From Chryseobacterium camelliae (GTDB lineage: Bacteria > Bacteroidota > Bacteroidia > Flavobacteriales > Weeksellaceae), in assembly GCF_027920545.1 (NCBI RefSeq), contig NZ_CP115859.1, forward strand, positions 744,001 through 808,000: a stretch of 64,000 nucleotides of DNA. The letters are read 5' to 3'. The notes beneath the pieces are model-generated. The model saw only the letters and a program-made list of their open reading frames with translations. It was not told the DNA's origin and did no database searches. Positions within the stretch are counted from its first letter, which is position 1. Each line of letters starts with the position of its first letter. The translations under genes and the position numbers were made by a program. Positions 4,451 to 36,284 of this stretch are shown here, one piece after another.

Positions 4451-4650
4451 ATATCATTTTTTAATGATACGATTGCTGTCATTCATAATGAATCCGTCAG
4501 TTCGAGTGTTTTTCCGAAGGAAAAATGTATCGAGAACTTTATGATAATACCGGAGTTCCCGATACAAAATTCTTTCAGAATTTCACTCGTACTGACGGAA
4601 GGAAACCACTCAACACAATGCTGAATTGTTTTTCATCATCTAAGACGGGT
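4451..4650. repeat. Foldback repeat, copy 2, overlapping the end of the DUF6261 gene
   Basis: Same unit as copy 1: ATATCATTTTTTAATGATAC, then CCGTCAGTTCGAGTG (4493-4507) pairing with CACTCGTACTGACGG (about 4583-4597), inner arms ATGTATCGAGAACT and AGTTCCCGATAC. The last 11 bases are the 3' end of the DUF6261 coding sequence. The 33 bp between the copies (4418-4450) retain a faint match to the codons just before the DUF6261 stop. Together the repeats explain the whole 465-bp gap 4175-4639. Confidence 0.75.
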
Positions 4651-5338
4651 TTTGATCTTTTCTCCTGAGTTCGGAATTCTTCGCTGCCTTCACCAGCTCA
4701 TTGGTATCGCTGTAGAGAAGCTCCCATTCGGGAACGTCTTTCATGGCGGTCAGCAGGTTGAAATAGGTTTTCAGGTTTTTCTCCAATCCCCTGCGAATGG
4801 CGGTAGCACTGGTCAGCTGACGAAGATCTGCATTGGCTGCTGCCTGATCTGCAAAAATGATTTCAAAGTCTTCATGCTTAGCCTTCATGTCTGCAAACGC
4901 CGCATCCAAAGCAAGAATAGCGATTTTCTGAAGATTTCCGGGCGTTTCCAGCTCTTCGATCAGCTTTTTCATCTGGGCCGTCTGTGAGGAATAGCTTAAC
5001 CGGTCCAGATCCAGCCCGAACTTTTTAAATATTCCGTACAGGTCTTCTGCAACCTGATAGTTAGCCGCTGAAGAAAGTTTCCGGTACCCGTTCAGGAACG
5101 CCTTAAGATTGTTATAGGCAAGATCTCTTTCGTAGTCTGCCGAAGCGACGTCTTTTCCTTTTCCGCTGTAGATCTGCTTTGCATACACTTTGTCATACTC
5201 CTTCCATGAAGTTTCCAAAGTTGCGGTAAGGGGATGATTGGTAATCACAGGATATTTTCCTGACTGAGCATTTGAAATAACGCGTTGAGCTAAGGTCGCA
5301 AGGTCCTTAGTACTCAGCTTCGTGAGTGTAATTTTCAT
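4640..5338 (-). CDS. DUF6261 family protein
   Basis: 232 residues, all predicted helical, starting MKITLTKLSTKDLATLAQRV; this opening and the overall length match DUF6261, a family abundant in Chryseobacterium and without known function. There is no signal peptide, so it is probably cytoplasmic. Codon use is richer in G and C than that of its neighbours (many GCC, CTG, CAG), which hints at an origin or expression history different from theirs. The stop codon lies inside copy 2 of the foldback repeat. Confidence 0.65.
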   Translation of the reverse strand: MKITLTKLSTKDLATLAQRVISNAQSGKYPVITNHPLTATLETSWKEYDKVYAKQIYSGKGKDVASADYERDLAYNNLKAFLNGYRKLSSAANYQVAEDLYGIFKKFGLDLDRLSYSSQTAQMKKLIEELETPGNLQKIAILALDAAFADMKAKHEDFEIIFADQAAANADLRQLTSATAIRRGLEKNLKTYFNLLTAMKDVPEWELLYSDTNELVKAAKNSELRRKDQNPS

Positions 5339-5510: not shown

Positions 5511-5704
5511 AATAAAAACTTCTTTGGTTACAAACACCCTTGTTTTAAACCAAAGAAGTCCTCCGAAGGTCTCCCGCAACTTGCGGGAGACTAAAGAAGT
5601 TCTCCGGTAGTCACAAACAACCCTGTTTTAAACCAACGAAGTACTCCGAAGGTTTGTTTCAAGGCTGTTTGTAATGATCGGAGGAGTTGGGTGGTTTGAA
5701 ACAG
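5511..5704. repeat. Nested foldback repeat, copy 1 (with hairpin insert)
   Basis: Shares over 90 percent of its sequence with 6555-6707 in direct orientation. The outer arms are TTACAAACACCCTTG and its reverse complement (slightly changed here), and a second arm set is built on TGTTTTAAACCAACG. Compared with copy 2 it has about 40 extra bases containing a perfect 10-bp-arm hairpin at 5570-5590 (TCTCCCGCAA / TTGCGGGAGA). It ends just before the stop of the DUF6624 gene. Bases 5339-5510 show no gene. Confidence 0.75.
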
Positions 5705-5713
5705 GCTGTTTTG

Positions 5714-6328
5714 TTAATTCGGATTGAACTGAATATTGAAATTCTTTAAATAATCCTCTATTGGTTCCATTCCCATTTCTTTTCTTCTTTCGTTCACAGT
5801 TTCAGGATTTTCTAATTTATACAATTTACCATTTTCTATTTGTGAACCATATATTTGGGGAGTTCCTTCATCCATTAACATCCTATCTTTCATCAATGCG
5901 TATTGTTGTTTAGATAAATCTCCATTTTCAACCGCTTTCTCTATTTGTGGAAAATACTTTTTTCTGATTTCTTTAGTACTATGTTGTAGTCCCAACCAGA
6001 TTGCATCCATTTGTTTTTGACCCACCTCCTTTAATGTTGGCATACCACACTTTTCAATAATGCTAATCACTAATTCTTGATTCCTGTGATCTTCTTTAGC
6101 GTATTTGATAAGTTCATTTGATTTTCTAATCCTTTGGTCACTTTCTAAAACTTCGCTCAAGATTTGATTTTTTTTGCTGCAATCGACTTCAATAATATCT
6201 ACTGAACCTACATAGACAAATTTATCCCTATTCATATAAAGGAATATTGATATTATTAAAACAAGAGCGGTTAATATGCTAAATACTATTTTTTTTATTT
6301 TCATTTCTATTTTTGTGTCATATTCCAA
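5714..6328 (-). CDS. DUF6624 family protein, N-terminal membrane anchor
   Basis: 204 residues. A membrane segment lies at about 14-31; a second possible start is Met9 (6304), which would still include it. The rest should be periplasmic and carries the DUF6624 pattern: SDQRIRKSNELI, GMPTLKEVGQKQMDAIWLGL followed by QHS, then ALMKDRMLMDEGTPQIYGSQ and a C-terminal ERRKEMGMEPIEDY. The activity of this family is unknown to me; conserved Asp, His and Arg suggest an enzyme. The gene lies between the two nested foldback repeats, is AT-rich, and looks like accessory content. Confidence 0.6.
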   Translation of the reverse strand: MEYDTKIEMKIKKIVFSILTALVLIISIFLYMNRDKFVYVGSVDIIEVDCSKKNQILSEVLESDQRIRKSNELIKYAKEDHRNQELVISIIEKCGMPTLKEVGQKQMDAIWLGLQHSTKEIRKKYFPQIEKAVENGDLSKQQYALMKDRMLMDEGTPQIYGSQIENGKLYKLENPETVNERRKEMGMEPIEDYLKNFNIQFNPN

Positions 6329-6417
6329 ACCAGGTTGACCATTTTTGGTTAAAAATTAATTGTCTCAAAAGTAGGAATTATTTTTAAGTGCCGGAATAAA
6401 GCATGGATAATTTCCCC

Positions 6418-6480
6418 CCGATCTCGAGGATTTGCAATCCGTGAGCAAGAATAAAGCACTGATTATAAATCCGCGCTATC
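6418..6480. repeat. REP-like remnant
   Basis: GGATTTGCAATCC (6428-6440) followed by ATTATAAATCCGCG resembles dispersed flavobacterial intergenic repeats. Only one copy is seen in this window, so the assignment rests on general recall. The rest of 6329-6488 contains no gene. Confidence 0.35.
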
Positions 6481-6488
6481 ATAAAAAG

Positions 6489-6549
6489 AAAAACCTGCCT
6501 CAAAGCAGTTTTTTTTATTTAAATAAGTTTTAAAAACAAAGTATCATAA
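6489..6549. other. Degenerate second copy of the hutU 3' end and terminator
   Basis: Bases 6489-6502 (AAAAACCTGCCTCA) are identical to 8748-8761 at the terminator shared by ptuB and hutU. The match continues at a lower level for about 45 bp: GCAG, T-run, ATTTAAATAAG, then AAAACAAAGTATCAT against 8791-8804, which is the last codons of hutU. It is in the same orientation as the true end. It therefore looks like a duplicated hutU end on the far side of the Septu cassette. Confidence 0.6.
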
Positions 6550-6554
6550 TCCCC

Positions 6555-6707
6555 AATAAAAACTTCTTTGGTTACAAACACCCTTGTTTTAAACCAAAGA
6601 AGTACTCCGGTAGTCACAAACACTCCTGTTTTAAACCAACGGAGGACTCCGAAGGTTTGTTTCAAGGGTGTTTGTAATGATCGGAGGAGTTGGGTGGTTT
6701 GAAACAG
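6555..6707. repeat. Nested foldback repeat, copy 2
   Basis: Direct repeat of 5511-5704 without the hairpin insert. Perfect 15-bp inverted arms: 6572-6586 (TTACAAACACCCTTG) and 6663-6677. Internally there are two direct copies of an ACAAACA(C)-n-CTGTTTTAAACCAA unit and an inverted one ending GGTGGTTTGAAACAG. It lies directly upstream of the ptuA promoter. Confidence 0.75.
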
Positions 6708-6756
6708 AGTTTATTTAAAAAGATTTATCTTTTTAAATTACGGAAAACCATAATAA

Positions 6757-6783
6757 TTGAATGAAATTACTTCTATATATTTG
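6757..6783 (+). promoter_or_regulatory. Promoter of the ptuAB operon
   Basis: TTG at 6757-6759, 16 bp, then TATATTTG at 6776-6783, a full match to TAnnTTTG. The spacer is a few bases shorter than typical. The predicted 5' leader is about 28 nt. Sits after the foldback repeat, so the cassette brings its own promoter. Confidence 0.55.
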
Positions 6784-6817
6784 AAACAAAATTAATAAAA
6801 ACATTAACTTAAATATA

Positions 6818-7999
6818 ATGTTAAGAATTAACGACATAAAAATAACAGGTATTGGTCCTATTAAAAATTTAGAATTAACTTTCAATAATCATTTCAATAT
6901 TATTTGTGGTCAAAATGGAATAGGTAAAACAACTATTTTAGATTGTTTAGCTCAATCATTTGGAGCCAATTACACTTCGTTAAAAAAAACCGCAGGTCTG
7001 CAAAGCGGAAATTGGACTATTGAAATTTCAATTAATGGTCACACACAAAACAAGTCCTTTGACATTACTTCTTTTCATCCAAATGAAAATACTTATAACG
7101 GAGCAAACGGGCTTTATGAAAGTTCTAACGATATTATAGTATTCAAAACACATCGTGATATTCCTTATCAGCAATTAAGCTCATTGGTTACAAATCCTCA
7201 AAAACAAATCCACGACTTTGCTCACGAAACAATGCTTGGGTCATTCCCAAATAACTTGAAGAATTGGTTTGTAAGTCAACATTTGTGGTCAGCTCACGAA
7301 AATCATTTAGATGAACAACAGATTAGGAATATCAATTTAGCGAAGGAATGCTTTAGTATTTTGAATTCAGAAATTTCATTTAGTAAGGTAATTCCCAACT
7401 CGAATGATATAATGTTAAATACGCCAAATGGAGAAATTTATTTTGAATATTTATCATCAGGCTATAAATCTTGTATGGCTGTATTACTTGGGTTAATTAA
7501 AGAGATTGAGTTTCGATATAAAAACCCAAGTAAATTCATAAAAGATTTCGAAGGAATAGTTTTCATTGACGAAATTGATTTGCATTTGCATCCTGAATGG
7601 CAAGCCAAAATCTGTCAAGCATTAAAAGTTATTCTACCGAATGCACAAGTATTTACATCAACACATAGCCCTCATATTATTCAAGTGGCAGATGCTAACG
7701 AAATCATTCCTCTAACACTTGATGATGCAAATGAGATTAAATTAAATCCAATTATTAATCAAGAATATGGTTGCCAGGGTTGGACAGTTGAAGAAATATT
7801 AACTGATGTTATGGGAATGGAAGAAACAAGAACTTCTACATATTTAGATGCCATAATAAATTTTAATTCTGCGCTTGACAATGATGATTTTGAAGCTGCA
7901 AATGTTCAGTTTTTAATTCTAGATGCAATGTTACATCCAGAAAATTCACTAAGAAAAATATTAAAAATTCAATTAACTGGAATTTCTGCAAATGATTAA
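6818..7999 (+). CDS. ptuA: Septu-type anti-phage ATPase PtuA (AAA / ABC-type)
   Basis: 393 residues. Walker A GQNGIGKTT at residues 31-39, an ABC-signature-like YLSSGYKSCMAVLL in the second half, Walker B IVFIDEIDLHLHPEW and the switch STHSPHII. This is the SMC/OLD-like ATPase arrangement with a short insertion in place of a long coiled coil. The C-terminal GWTVEEILTDVMGMEE and LHPEN segments recall the tails of Septu and retron-associated ATPases. In Septu, PtuA forms a complex with the HNH nuclease PtuB and restrains or licenses DNA cleavage during phage infection. Here ptuB follows with an 8-bp overlap. No reverse transcriptase is nearby, so this is a stand-alone system, not a retron. The gene is visibly AT-richer than its surroundings, as expected of horizontally moved defence genes. 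Confidence 0.8.
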   Translation: MLRINDIKITGIGPIKNLELTFNNHFNIICGQNGIGKTTILDCLAQSFGANYTSLKKTAGLQSGNWTIEISINGHTQNKSFDITSFHPNENTYNGANGLYESSNDIIVFKTHRDIPYQQLSSLVTNPQKQIHDFAHETMLGSFPNNLKNWFVSQHLWSAHENHLDEQQIRNINLAKECFSILNSEISFSKVIPNSNDIMLNTPNGEIYFEYLSSGYKSCMAVLLGLIKEIEFRYKNPSKFIKDFEGIVFIDEIDLHLHPEWQAKICQALKVILPNAQVFTSTHSPHIIQVADANEIIPLTLDDANEIKLNPIINQEYGCQGWTVEEILTDVMGMEETRTSTYLDAIINFNSALDNDDFEAANVQFLILDAMLHPENSLRKILKIQLTGISAND

Positions 8000-8744
8000 A
8001 TTAAATAGAACACCCAAACCTATAGAACTTACAGATGCAGTCAAAAATAATTTAACAAATGAGTTTAAATCTACTGGCAAATCTGTTTGGAATACTGATT
8101 ACATAAAAAAAGGATTATTAAGTTTTTCTCATAATAAATGTTGTTATTGTGAAACTAATATAAAAGAAGAAAGCAAATATTTAGAAGTTGAGCATTTCCA
8201 CCACAAAGAAACTTATAAAGATGAAGTTTTAGACTGGGAAAACTTATTACCTTCTTGTAAAAGATGTAATGGTACAAAAAATGATCACGACACTAAATTA
8301 GAACCGATAGTTGACCCAAGTAAAATTGATCCAAAAAATCATTTAAAATATTGGCGTTACAGAATAAAGGGCTCTGATGAATTGGGTAAGCTTACTGTTT
8401 CTGTTCTAAAACTAAATGACCAAGATAGGTTAGTAAAGAAAAGATTTGAAATAGGGAATGCAATTCAAGAAAGATTAGAACAATTAAATGAATTAACTGA
8501 TGATTATATTAATGGTATTCAAAGAAGTACACGTAGAAAGAACAGAATTGTCAATGGAATAAAAGATCTTATGAAAGAAGGTCTTCCTAGTTCGATCTAT
8601 TCGGCAACTGCAGCAACTGTAATTTTAACTGATACGGAATTCGATACATTAAAAAGAAAGTTGAATTCAGTAGATTTGTGGGATGCAGAATTATCTCAAT
8701 TAGAGATTCATATTACAACAACAGCATTAGACCTTGAAAGATGA
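7992..8744 (+). CDS. ptuB: Septu-type HNH endonuclease PtuB
   Basis: 250 residues. The HNH core spans about residues 48-100: zinc ligands in CCYC (Cys50/51 and Cys53) and CKRC (Cys89, Cys92), the catalytic VEH (Glu67-His68) and the Asn84/Asn93 region WENLLPSCKRCNGTKNDH. The helical C-terminal half fits the PtuB / retron-associated HNH family. The ATG overlaps the ptuA stop (ATGATTAA), which indicates translational coupling. It is the effector that should cut DNA when released by PtuA. It ends at a strong terminator facing hutU. No third Septu gene is seen. Confidence 0.8.
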   Translation: MIKLNRTPKPIELTDAVKNNLTNEFKSTGKSVWNTDYIKKGLLSFSHNKCCYCETNIKEESKYLEVEHFHHKETYKDEVLDWENLLPSCKRCNGTKNDHDTKLEPIVDPSKIDPKNHLKYWRYRIKGSDELGKLTVSVLKLNDQDRLVKKRFEIGNAIQERLEQLNELTDDYINGIQRSTRRKNRIVNGIKDLMKEGLPSSIYSATAATVILTDTEFDTLKRKLNSVDLWDAELSQLEIHITTTALDLER

Positions 8745-8745
8745 T

Positions 8746-8775
8746 AAAAAAACCTGCCTCATGGCAGGTTTTTAA
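8746..8775. terminator. Bidirectional terminator between ptuB and hutU
   Basis: AAAAACCTGCC TCAT GGCAGGTTTTT: perfect 10-11 bp stem, A-run before and T-run after, so it can serve both convergent genes. Begins one base after the ptuB stop. Confidence 0.85.
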
Positions 8776-8788
8776 TATTTAAAAAGTC

Positions 8789-10774
8789 CTAAAACAAATT
8801 ATCATCCACAATATTCGGAAGCGTTACTTTTAAATTCGGTTCTACTTCCATGGCTCTTTTAATGGCGAAAATAGCGCCTTCATTTCTTGCCCAGCTGCGT
8901 CTTGAGATTCCGTTGTTCACATCCCAGAACAGCATTGATTTTAATCTTCTGTCGGCATCATCGCTTCCATCCAACAACATCCCGAAACCACCGTTGATTA
9001 CTTCTCCCCAGCCAACGCCACCTCCATTGTGAATAGAAACCCAGGTTGCCCCACGGAAACTGTCACCAATCACATTGTGGATCGCCATATCTGCCGTAAA
9101 TCTTGAACCGTCGTAGATATTGGAAGTCTCTCTGTATGGAGAATCCGTTCCCGAAACATCGTGATGGTCTCTACCCAATACTACCGGTCCGATCTCCCCG
9201 TTTTTAATGGCTTTATTGAAAGCTTCTGCAATCTTCATTCTTCCTTCCGCATCCGCATATAAGATTCTCGCCTGTGAACCTACCACAAGTTTATTTTCCT
9301 GCGCTCCCTTGATCCACTGAATATTGTCTTTCATCTGCTGCTGGATCTCCTCAGGAGAGTTCTGCTGAATTTCTTCCAGCACCGCACAGGCAATATCATC
9401 GGTTTTCTGTAAGTCTTCCGGCTTTCCGCTGGTACACACCCAACGGAACGGCCCGAAACCGTAATCGAAACACATCGGTCCCATAATATCCTGAACATAA
9501 GAAGGGAATTTAAATTCTCTTCCCAACGTAGGATTTTCTGCCATTACATCGGCTCCCGCTCTTGAAGCTTCCAACAGGAAAGCATTTCCGTAATCGAAGA
9601 AATAGGTTCCTTTTTCCGTATGCTTATTGATGGCAGCAGCGTGTCTTCTCAACGTCTCCTGAACTTTATCCTTAAATAATTCAGGGTCTTCCGCCATCAT
9701 TTTATTGGATTCCTCAAAACTTTGCCCGACAGGATAATAACCTCCCGCCCAAGGATTGTGCAACGAAGTCTGGTCTGAACCGATATCGATTCTTAAATTT
9801 TCCTGATCGAATTTCTCCCAAACCTCCACAATATTTCCAAGGTAAGCAAGAGAAACGGTTTCTTTATCTTCCTGGGCTTGTCTCACTCTTGCTACCAGCT
9901 CGTCAAGGTTTTCATGGATTTCGTTCACCCATTTCTGATCGTGACGAATTTTAGTAATCTTTGGATTCACCTCGGCACAAACGGTAACACAACCTGCAAT
10001 ATTTCCTGCTTTCGGCTGAGCTCCACTCATTCCTCCCAAACCTGAAGTCACGAAAAGCCCGCCTTTAGGTTCTTTATGTATTTTTCTGAACGCATTTAAA
10101 ACGGTAATCGTAGTCCCATGAACAATTCCCTGCGGACCGATATACATATAGCTTCCTGCCGTCATTTGTCCGTACTGCGTCACACCCAACGCATTGAATT
10201 TCTCCCAGTCATCCGGCTTAGAGTAATTCGGGATCATCATTCCGTTGGTAACCACCACTCTCGGCGCATCTTTGTGAGAAGGGAACAATCCCATCGGATG
10301 GCCTGAGTACATTACCAAAGTCTGTTCGTCTGTCATTTCAGACAAATATTTCATCGTCAAAAGATACTGTGCCCAGTTGGAAAACACCGCTCCGTTTCCA
10401 CCATACGTAATCAGTTCATGGGGATGCTGCGCCACCGAATAATCCAGGTTGTTCTGAATCATCAGCATGATCGCTTTTGCCTGCTCAGATTTTCCCGGAT
10501 ATTCAGCAATCGGTCTCGCCTTCATCTCATAATCCGGACGGAAACGGTACATATAAATTCTGCCGTATTTTTCCAACTCCTCCTTAAATTCAGGCAGTAA
10601 TTCGGCATGAAACTGAGGTTCAAAATAACGTAAAGCGTTCTTCAGGGCTAATTTTTTCTCTTCGTCTCCTAAAATTTCTTTACGCTTCGGCGCATGGTTG
10701 ATATTGGTTTCGTAAGGTCTGGATGTCGGTAACTGGCTTGGAATGCCTTGTTGTATCTGTTCCTGGAAAGTCAT
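8789..10774 (-). CDS. hutU: Urocanate hydratase
   Basis: 661 residues, collinear over its full length with urocanases of the longer (Bacteroidota) type. Converts urocanate to imidazolone propionate in histidine breakdown, using tightly bound NAD+ as an electrophile. Recognisable stretches are VMYSGHPMGLFPSH, GLGGMSGAQPKAGNIAG (dinucleotide region, about 250-265) and DYGNAFLLEASRAGADV with the GFGPFRWVCTSG loop whose Cys is near the active site. No other hut gene is in the window. The protein ends DDNLF, and the DNA coding these last residues is partly duplicated at 6530-6549. Confidence 0.95.
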   Translation of the reverse strand: MTFQEQIQQGIPSQLPTSRPYETNINHAPKRKEILGDEEKKLALKNALRYFEPQFHAELLPEFKEELEKYGRIYMYRFRPDYEMKARPIAEYPGKSEQAKAIMLMIQNNLDYSVAQHPHELITYGGNGAVFSNWAQYLLTMKYLSEMTDEQTLVMYSGHPMGLFPSHKDAPRVVVTNGMMIPNYSKPDDWEKFNALGVTQYGQMTAGSYMYIGPQGIVHGTTITVLNAFRKIHKEPKGGLFVTSGLGGMSGAQPKAGNIAGCVTVCAEVNPKITKIRHDQKWVNEIHENLDELVARVRQAQEDKETVSLAYLGNIVEVWEKFDQENLRIDIGSDQTSLHNPWAGGYYPVGQSFEESNKMMAEDPELFKDKVQETLRRHAAAINKHTEKGTYFFDYGNAFLLEASRAGADVMAENPTLGREFKFPSYVQDIMGPMCFDYGFGPFRWVCTSGKPEDLQKTDDIACAVLEEIQQNSPEEIQQQMKDNIQWIKGAQENKLVVGSQARILYADAEGRMKIAEAFNKAIKNGEIGPVVLGRDHHDVSGTDSPYRETSNIYDGSRFTADMAIHNVIGDSFRGATWVSIHNGGGVGWGEVINGGFGMLLDGSDDADRRLKSMLFWDVNNGISRRSWARNEGAIFAIKRAMEVEPNLKVTLPNIVDDNLF

Positions 10775-11036: not shown

Positions 11037-11456
11037 TTATCGGTGGGCGTAATGTTCAATAATAAAATCTTCCAGCTCTTTCATAACGACACCCAGGTTG
11101 TTTTTAATATCGAAATCTGTAATTCTAAAAACATATAATCCAAAAGATTCCAGGTATTTCTGCCTTTCCAAATCATAAGATTCTTTTACATCATGGCTCC
11201 AGCCGTCAATTTCTATCACTAATCCGAGTGTTTTCACATAAAAATCAACGATATAATTTCCTATAATTCGTTGTCTGTCAAAATCTATCCTGTGGAAGCT
11301 TCCTGCTCGGACCTTTTTCCAGAACAGCACTTCGCTGAGGATTCCGGCTTTCCGTTTCCCGTTGAGTAACCGTTTTAATCTGGGGTTATAAGGCAGGCCT
11401 TCTATATAGTTTTTGTAAATGGAAATTTCGTTGATGAGAGTTAGGATTTCTTTCAT
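11037..11456 (-). CDS. DUF559 family endonuclease-like protein (Vsr / PD-(D/E)XK fold)
   Basis: 139 residues, the normal size for DUF559. The catalytic signature is visible in the middle: VRAGSFHRIDFDRQRIIGNY, IVDFYVKTLGLVIEIDGWSH, that is an Asp and the E-x-D of a PD-(D/E)XK nuclease followed by His. Members are small proteins related to very-short-patch repair nucleases; their biological role is not established. Direct repeats of about 53 bp flank the gene closely, 16 bp after the stop and 33 bp before the start. The start at 11456 gives the complete N-terminal helix. Confidence 0.8.
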   Translation of the reverse strand: MKEILTLINEISIYKNYIEGLPYNPRLKRLLNGKRKAGILSEVLFWKKVRAGSFHRIDFDRQRIIGNYIVDFYVKTLGLVIEIDGWSHDVKESYDLERQKYLESFGLYVFRITDFDIKNNLGVVMKELEDFIIEHYAHR

Positions 11457-36160: not shown

Positions 36161-36193
36161 TTTACTATTTCAGATTTTTGCTTGGTTTTAACT

Positions 36194-36284
36194 AGCCCCG
36201 ATTGTAGCGGCATCCTTTTTTGTTGCGGCCGGAGCGTAGCGGAGGCCGTAATAAAAAAGATATAGCGGAAAGCGGGATTAAGCT
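36194..36284. repeat. Large palindromic REP-like element
   Basis: Arms AGCCCCGATTGTAGCGGC..CCTTTTTTGTTGCGG and its imperfect inverse CCGTAATAAAAAAG..AGCGG..GCGGGATTAAGCT surround GGCCGGAGCGTAGCGGAGGCC-type sequence (ends with GGCC on both sides). The element sits between the esterase and GH144 genes inside the polysaccharide locus. I recall the core as a common flavobacterial repeat. Confidence 0.7.

Follow-up and report, generated by a model that had tools for sequence, protein, structure and literature searches.

The window, by which we mean the whole stretch of 64,000 nucleotides that was analysed, carries two genes, ptuA and ptuB, that are convergent with hutU; the 3' end of hutU borders a variable interval. 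The features at the locus are the following, in window coordinates.

4640 to 5338, minus strand: DUF6261 gene (PF19775, 1e-18), which in many relatives anchors the variable interval on its downstream side
5714 to 6328, minus strand: DUF6624 gene (PF20329, 5.4e-14), a resident neighbour beyond the hutU copy
6432 to 6547, minus strand: decayed second hutU 3' end with terminator, in the same orientation as hutU, forming the far edge of the interval
6555 to 6735, no strand assigned: repeat of about 180 bp, rich in inverted repeats, resident backbone and not Septu
6738 to 6817, plus strand: Septu-specific leader, its left edge approximate (about 6713 to 6750), where identity with the relative L059 is lost
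6818 to 7999, plus strand: ptuA, 393 aa, SMC/ABC-type ATPase (PADLOC, Pfam, PDB profile match, alignments)
7992 to 8744, plus strand: ptuB, 250 aa, HNH nuclease (PADLOC, Pfam, PDB profile match, alignments)
8748 to 8774 (approximate), no strand assigned: hairpin of six pairs read by eye, preceded by an A-run and followed by a T-run
8789 to 10774, minus strand: hutU, urocanate hydratase (Pfam Urocanase domains; NCBIfam TIGR01228, 419.7 of 375 bits)

Both reading frames are open and overlap by 8 nucleotides (7992–7999). The two kilobases that hold most of them have GC contents of 0.312 (7001–8000) and 0.320 (8001–9000), and the flanking kilobases 0.298 and 0.452, so the description of two AT-rich genes with an 8-bp overlap in the sequence-only reading stands. 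That reading had assigned the pair to Septu, and the PADLOC search bears this out with matches along the full length of both proteins: PtuA to PDLC00305 (535.6 bits, E 2.2e-161, positions 1–390 of 392) and PtuB to PDLC00342 (332.7 bits, E 3.1e-100, positions 1–246 of 247). The best models are those of PtuA and PtuB themselves, and not of families outside Septu and the retrons. Among the Pfam families, PtuA exceeds the cut-offs of AAA_15, AAA_21, AAA_23 and SMC_N, and PtuB lies narrowly above that of HNH (23.4 against 21.4 bits). The top PDB match of PtuA by sequence is the PtuA of 8ee4 (4.4e-18; 1.1e-22 with a 20-row profile), which we take to be E. coli Septu, and the chains ranking after it carry the labels AAA family ATPase, PtuA or retron ATPase; for PtuB the top match is 9n69_F (0.0014 with the single sequence; 1.4e-6 with a 22-row profile). 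The AlphaFold monomer models of PtuA and PtuB are poor (mean pLDDT 46.7 and 63.0).

The motifs expected of an ATPase with Walker A and B sites and an ABC-like signature, and of an HNH nuclease with a CxxC/CxxC zinc site, had already been claimed and could be located. In PtuA they are GQNGIGKTT (Walker A, residues 31–39), LSSGYKS (signature, 212–218) and IVFIDE (Walker B, 247–252), together with H283; in PtuB the key residues are C50/C53, H68, N84, C89/C92, N93 and K96. The functional roles given to these residues are those usual in the two families. The key residues are invariant in alignments of 20 PtuA rows (the others 69–84% identical to the query, picked from the best 120 of 2211 matches) and 22 PtuB rows (68–83% identity, picked from the best 120 of 554 matches). 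The identity falls to 22% for PtuA and 33% for PtuB in a set of nine hand-chosen pairs from Bacteroidota, Bacillota, Pseudomonadota, two further genomes and one phage; the invariant columns there include G31, N33, G34, G36, K37, L212–G215, D251, E252 and H283 of PtuA and C50, C53, H68, N84, C89, C92, N93 and K96 of PtuB.

Two MAGs, one of Flavobacteriaceae (L002) and one of Sporocytophaga (L003), hold relatives at 81–83% identity with the identical 8-nucleotide overlap and different neighbouring genes. In searches of genome sets, a match was found in one of 246 genomes of the family at E ≤ 1e-60 (its own) and in two of 395 genomes of the phylum at E ≤ 1e-80 (its own and G438), with 2211 PtuA matches in a large protein set at E ≤ 1e-10.

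The same kinds of protein also serve as the effectors of type I-A retrons, and the pair could be the remnant of such a retron, or work with one, the reverse transcriptase and msr/msd having been lost or lying elsewhere. The retron models ATPase_I-A and HNH_I-A do match in PADLOC, at lower scores, and inverted repeats lie upstream of ptuA (6562–6677). The NCBIfam retron cut-offs, however, are missed by both proteins (Ec78 models NF041760 and NF041761: 122 of 500 bits for PtuA, 69 of 150 bits for PtuB), and TIGR02646 scores 43.7 bits against a cut-off of 52.15. A search of the 3,437,155-base genome with the reverse transcriptase family PF00078 gave nothing at E ≤ 0.001, and no reverse transcriptase was seen when the translations of ORFs of at least 100 aa from L002, L003 and a 4.2-kb stretch of G438 were read. 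Rfam at its gathering scores finds no retron RNA in the window, Flavo-1 being the only match, in a search that an undescribed RNA would escape. The earlier statement that the cassette has neither reverse transcriptase nor msr/msd and is not a retron agrees with these results. The upstream inverted repeats are not retron RNA, because they are retained in L059, a relative without Septu, and recur beside DUF6624. With no reverse transcriptase found in the genome, no msr/msd found in the window, missed cut-offs and upstream repeats that belong to the backbone, we reject the retron explanation as most improbable.

Because both PADLOC matches are full-length, no reverse transcriptase was found in the genome and the retron cut-offs of NCBIfam are missed, we conclude that the cassette is very probably a type I Septu anti-phage system, complete and stand-alone, composed of a PtuA ATPase and a PtuB HNH nuclease. 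The features of membership are present (full-length PtuA with an adjacent full-length PtuB, no reverse transcriptase, intact motifs), and no observation made here contradicts the assignment. With Septu type I (PDLC00305/PDLC00342) it has in common that both proteins are full-length, that the ATPase gene precedes the HNH gene and that no reverse transcriptase is present; there is no defining difference, and the cassette here stands in a variable slot behind a flavobacterial hutU. Retron I-A (Ec78/Eco7, Septu type II) has homologous PtuA and PtuB effectors, whereas the cassette here lacks reverse transcriptase and msr/msd and scores below the retron cut-offs. Its PtuA is also about 150 residues shorter than the PtuA chains labelled as retron (542–550 aa, one of 456). 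Type II is defined, in PMC8565338, by a preceding reverse transcriptase (PtuC).

The shortness of PtuA had been proposed to mark a sub-type. Compared with the PtuA of 8ee4 (465 against 393 aa), a block around Walker A and a block from the signature to the H-switch align, and between them lie 146 residues here against 216 in 8ee4; we presume this interval to be the place of the coiled-coil arm. The idea of a sub-type adds nothing new: the top PADLOC model already has 392 positions, and pairs with a short PtuA and free of reverse transcriptase are also present on plasmids, in one phage and in other phyla. The short PtuA belongs to an established sub-family, and the Septu described here is of an ordinary, known kind, one more flavobacterial member. 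PtuA relatives of 392–434 aa, followed by a PtuB-like gene of 243–252 aa, were found on plasmids (four of the five plasmid records matched at E ≤ 1e-40 were examined, the fifth being a Deinococcus record), in Burkholderia phage KS9 and in genome G438. No reverse transcriptase is among the annotated genes of the plasmid and phage stretches, the gene tables of the plasmids being incomplete. PADLOC assignment covered the C. difficile, Klebsiella and KS9 pairs, those of Pantoea, Azospirillum and G438 being left out; the best models of the C. difficile and Klebsiella pairs are again PDLC00305/PDLC00342. KS9, the only phage with such a pair (two records), carries it as gp32–gp33, with a short PtuA (434 aa), a PtuB and the 8-nucleotide overlap; it differs from the cassette in identity (22% and 33%) and in its best PADLOC models (PDLC00279 and PDLC00336), and an integrase gene adjoins it.

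We suggest that the pair most likely works like the Septu systems that have been studied. Li et al. reportedly described in 2024 a 6:2 PtuA:PtuB assembly that is inhibited by ATP. A PtuA oligomer would recruit PtuB and keep the nuclease inactive while ATP is plentiful, phage infection would release it, and the released PtuB would cut an essential nucleic acid and so stop the infected cell before phage is made. For this strain we infer the complex, the ATP gating, the trigger, the substrate and the protection by analogy. PMC13096335 reports that E. coli Septu EcB88 requires K43 and D316 of PtuA (Walker A/B) and H75 and N91 of PtuB, and that it acts in an abortive-infection-like manner, the variable loop of tRNA-Tyr being cut after infection. 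These four residues are taken as the equivalents of K37, D251, H68 and N84, a likeness of motif kinds (Walker A/B and H-N-H, essential in EcB88) drawn without alignment. PtuAB of retron Eco7 degrades tRNA-Tyr, and the Septu of E. coli ATCC 25922 is reported to act on nicked DNA (both from PMC11555353). To the solved Septu and retron pairs this one is only distantly similar (the best PtuB profile match is 1.4e-6), and the choice of substrate is for this reason not readable from the sequence.

A system that looks complete may still be silent, and the signals around the genes bear on this. The cassette had been credited with its own promoter, a claim that does not hold in that form: a sigma-70 scan of 6300–8900, which does not cover Bacteroidota promoters, returned 14 sites against 13.7 expected, and the candidate TTG-N16-TATATTTG at 6757–6783 was read by eye. 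The motif resembles what we take to be the flavobacterial promoter consensus. It lies within the Septu-specific leader; across this AT-rich stretch the BLAST alignment with L059 continued as far as 6819. A passenger that has decayed or fallen silent, with intact genes that are unexpressed or no longer protective, would agree with a sigma-70 signal no better than chance; we nevertheless consider it improbable, since the candidate promoter is of a type outside that scan, the frames are open over their full length, the catalytic residues are conserved, and L002 and L003 keep the identical overlap.

The strong terminator that was likewise assigned to the cassette has a simpler explanation. The hairpin at 8748–8774 is absent from the hits of the scan over 6300–8900; like hairpins follow hutU directly in four of 19 relatives (L039, L045, L047 and L051), and L034 and L035 have a comparable one farther from hutU. 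Because such hairpins follow hutU in relatives, it is most simply read as a hutU terminator, probably a two-way one shared between the cassette and the convergent hutU.

On the other side of the cassette lies the second hutU 3' end. It was detected by nhmmer (E 1.8e-8) and matches the genome's own hutU at 83% over 6489–6547 and the hutU end of a relative at 81% over the whole of 6432–6547 (5e-26). On this comparison we read the cassette as cargo, held in a variable slot whose two edges are hutU and a decayed copy of that gene's 3' end; neither the copy nor the variable locus figured in the sequence-only reading. Among the matches listed, the hutU end most like that of the window is in G234 (L059). 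The two loci match through hutU to 45 nucleotides past the stop codon (95.7%), and again leftwards from about 6713–6750. Between these stretches the window has Septu, whereas L059 has ORFs of 229, 408 and 85 aa, the first two of which we read as TIR and PIN proteins; either Septu was gained here or it was replaced in L059. The repeat of about 180 bp is present at the matching place in L059. Its only other genomic copy is in two pieces (5511–5559 and 5590–5704); the copies are direct and flank DUF6624 and the hutU 3' remnant, and the genome's only DUF6261 match adjoins. Upstream of DUF6261 in several relatives, not all, there are many short direct or inverted repeats.

Three other relatives show the locus in different states. 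Near-identical 204-aa counterparts of the DUF6624 gene are present in L053, L059 and L084. In G218 (L084), hutU, terminator and DUF6624 follow each other with nothing between them, like an empty site, and other cargo lies beyond DUF6624. In G253 (L053), the order is hutU, a 445-aa ORF, a hutU end that extends as far back as −125, then the same DUF6624 gene, which fits an entry of cargo at the hutU end that brings a new end and displaces the old one. In G037 (L045), of another genus, genes for a PtuB-like (204 aa) and a PtuA-like protein (383 aa) lie directly behind hutU; slot and orientation are the same as in the window, the sub-families (PDLC00352 and PDLC00303) differ, and a second hutU end was not found there.

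For a wider survey 59 stretches were fetched: 19 were chosen by kinship and a hutU match, before any search for duplications in relatives, 34 were preselected for at least two hutU-end matches and six for high-scoring single matches. L088, from the last group, was dropped for its shortness; the 59 loci tested include the window. A copy had to match at E ≤ 1e-6, lie within 5 kb and start at least 12 nucleotides before the hutU stop. By this fixed rule, a copy of the hutU end lies downstream in 20 of the 59 loci: 3/19 of those chosen by kinship, 16/34 of those preselected, 0/5 of the single-match loci, and the window. The first of these is the fairer estimate of frequency. Two hutU-end matches are no proof of duplication, because 18 of the 34 preselected loci show none by the rule. 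As a control, the same rule was applied to the 3' ends of eight further genes from these stretches, each with five or more usable loci, and gave 3/128, two of these three positives coming from a multi-member gene family. When a locus was counted as bearing cargo if at least one ORF of at least 80 aa lay between hutU and the first conserved neighbour, 47 of the 59 did so. Copies go with cargo, since 20 of the 47 loaded loci have one and none of the 12 others does. In 27 of the 47 the fixed rule found no second hutU end; either the scar has been lost from these loci or much cargo enters in another way.

The best alignments of 24 copies (a set without two weak ones from L058 and L068) start between −127 and −13 nucleotides from the hutU stop. 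Twelve start before −60, and ten of these, the best-kept copies, lie between −127 and −107. Such clustering is a hint that one point is preferred, and hence that a site-specific recombinase encoded elsewhere may act here; the remaining starts could be scattered through decay. We did not retain a single crossover point, given the scatter from −127 to −13 and a picture blurred by decay and alignment ends. L056 (G244) has three successive hutU 3' ends, all inside about 570 nucleotides from the stop and 93–96% alike, as if modules or ends were stacked.

What the slot holds was surveyed in the ORFs that separate hutU from the first anchor gene and have a length of 145 aa or more, 97 in all. This set excludes the window itself, L088, and two loci whose anchor is missing or distant (L067 and L071). 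At E ≤ 1e-5 these ORFs match 306 PADLOC models, none with more than six members; the 25 that are listed include GajA, Old, AriA and PtuA. At E ≤ 1e-4 they match 51 Pfam families, and the 25 listed include EcoRV, TIR_2, PIN_8, OLD-like TOPRIM, T5orf172, KwaB, GmrSD_N, RelA_SpoT and protein kinase as well as non-defence families such as GerE. Our impression is of an enrichment in defence genes, many of the matched PADLOC defence models having one ATPase domain in common.

The arrangement resembles an integrase-borne island at the 3' end of a gene, in which direct repeats of the target's 3' end surround the cargo. Such repeats are present in the window and 19 other loci and were not seen in 27 of the 47 cargo loci. 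The hutU slot differs in that, in eight genomes searched with PF00589, no tyrosine integrase lies in or beside the cargo; the nearest to hutU on the same contig is at 147 kb, in the window's own genome. Phage_integrase is also not among the 25 of 51 cargo Pfam families listed. Phages and plasmids were considered as the origin of the modules and set aside: hutU-end DNA has no match at E ≤ 1e-3 in 50,697 phage and 72,556 plasmid records. One exact degenerate pattern found none on viral contigs. We found no description of a hutU integration site in the open-access literature, and the slot seems undescribed; in PMC5122569, urocanate hydratase is the cargo of an element and not its target.

We put forward, tentatively and as something that may well prove wrong, that in these flavobacteria defence cassettes are accommodated at the 3' end of hutU, in a slot that functions with no resident integrase. 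Modules would arrive with their own copy of the last ~125 nucleotides of hutU and its terminator; the module would replace the hutU end, so that the enzyme stays whole and the old end is left as a scar; and the scar would mark the next exchange and might be reused for it, Septu being one of many interchangeable cargoes. Under this proposal many loaded loci would be without a scar because scars decay. For the way in which modules move, the main alternative to a site-specific recombinase is homology-assisted illegitimate recombination of DNA that has been taken up.

A rival explanation would make the nuclease module serve mainly its own spread, the HNH protein cutting unoccupied hutU 3' ends in a homing-like way with defence as a side effect. 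In PMC3630166, fungal mitochondrial inserts supply their target gene with a new 3' end and encode an endonuclease; the hutU-end copies that some loci have on the far side of the cargo recall these mobile ORFs, and there are nuclease families among the slot cargo. The cargo beside hutU copies, however, includes ORFs that are not recognised as nucleases (445 aa in L053, about 150 aa in several loci), and the close Septu relatives L002 and L003 have different flanking genes; we think homing highly unlikely. The variable slot behind hutU offers a fixed address at which to look for new defence genes among the unannotated cargo of this bacterial family. It is also a compact natural example in which to ask how defence genes change places without an integrase nearby. 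This Septu also adds a caution, in that its short PtuA belongs to a sub-family already established.

Some smaller observations concern the surroundings. ORFs of 146–152 aa lie directly behind hutU and in the same direction in L046, L055, L058, L062, L064, L065, L078, L079 and L080, and a hutU 3' copy follows in all nine loci except L079. The window has a 139-aa protein upstream of hutU (11037–11456), which we presume to resemble DUF559-type endonucleases. ORFs similar to it, also of 139 aa, are found in L046 and L050; there they stand behind hutU, enclosed by inverted CCCCTCC..GGAGGGG repeats that end just before a hutU 3' copy, and the unit may be a small mobile element. The Flavo-1 RNA lies at 36190–36283 (69.6 bits); together with the names of the relatives it suggests an origin in Flavobacteriia, and we would place the genome in Chryseobacterium or a neighbour. 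Two adjoining genes at 1007–1705 and 1795–2394 encode related proteins with a common CHENWE..CSVCSKTV start; they are 55% identical over the first 105 aa, and their end resembles a TonB-receptor plug by eye.
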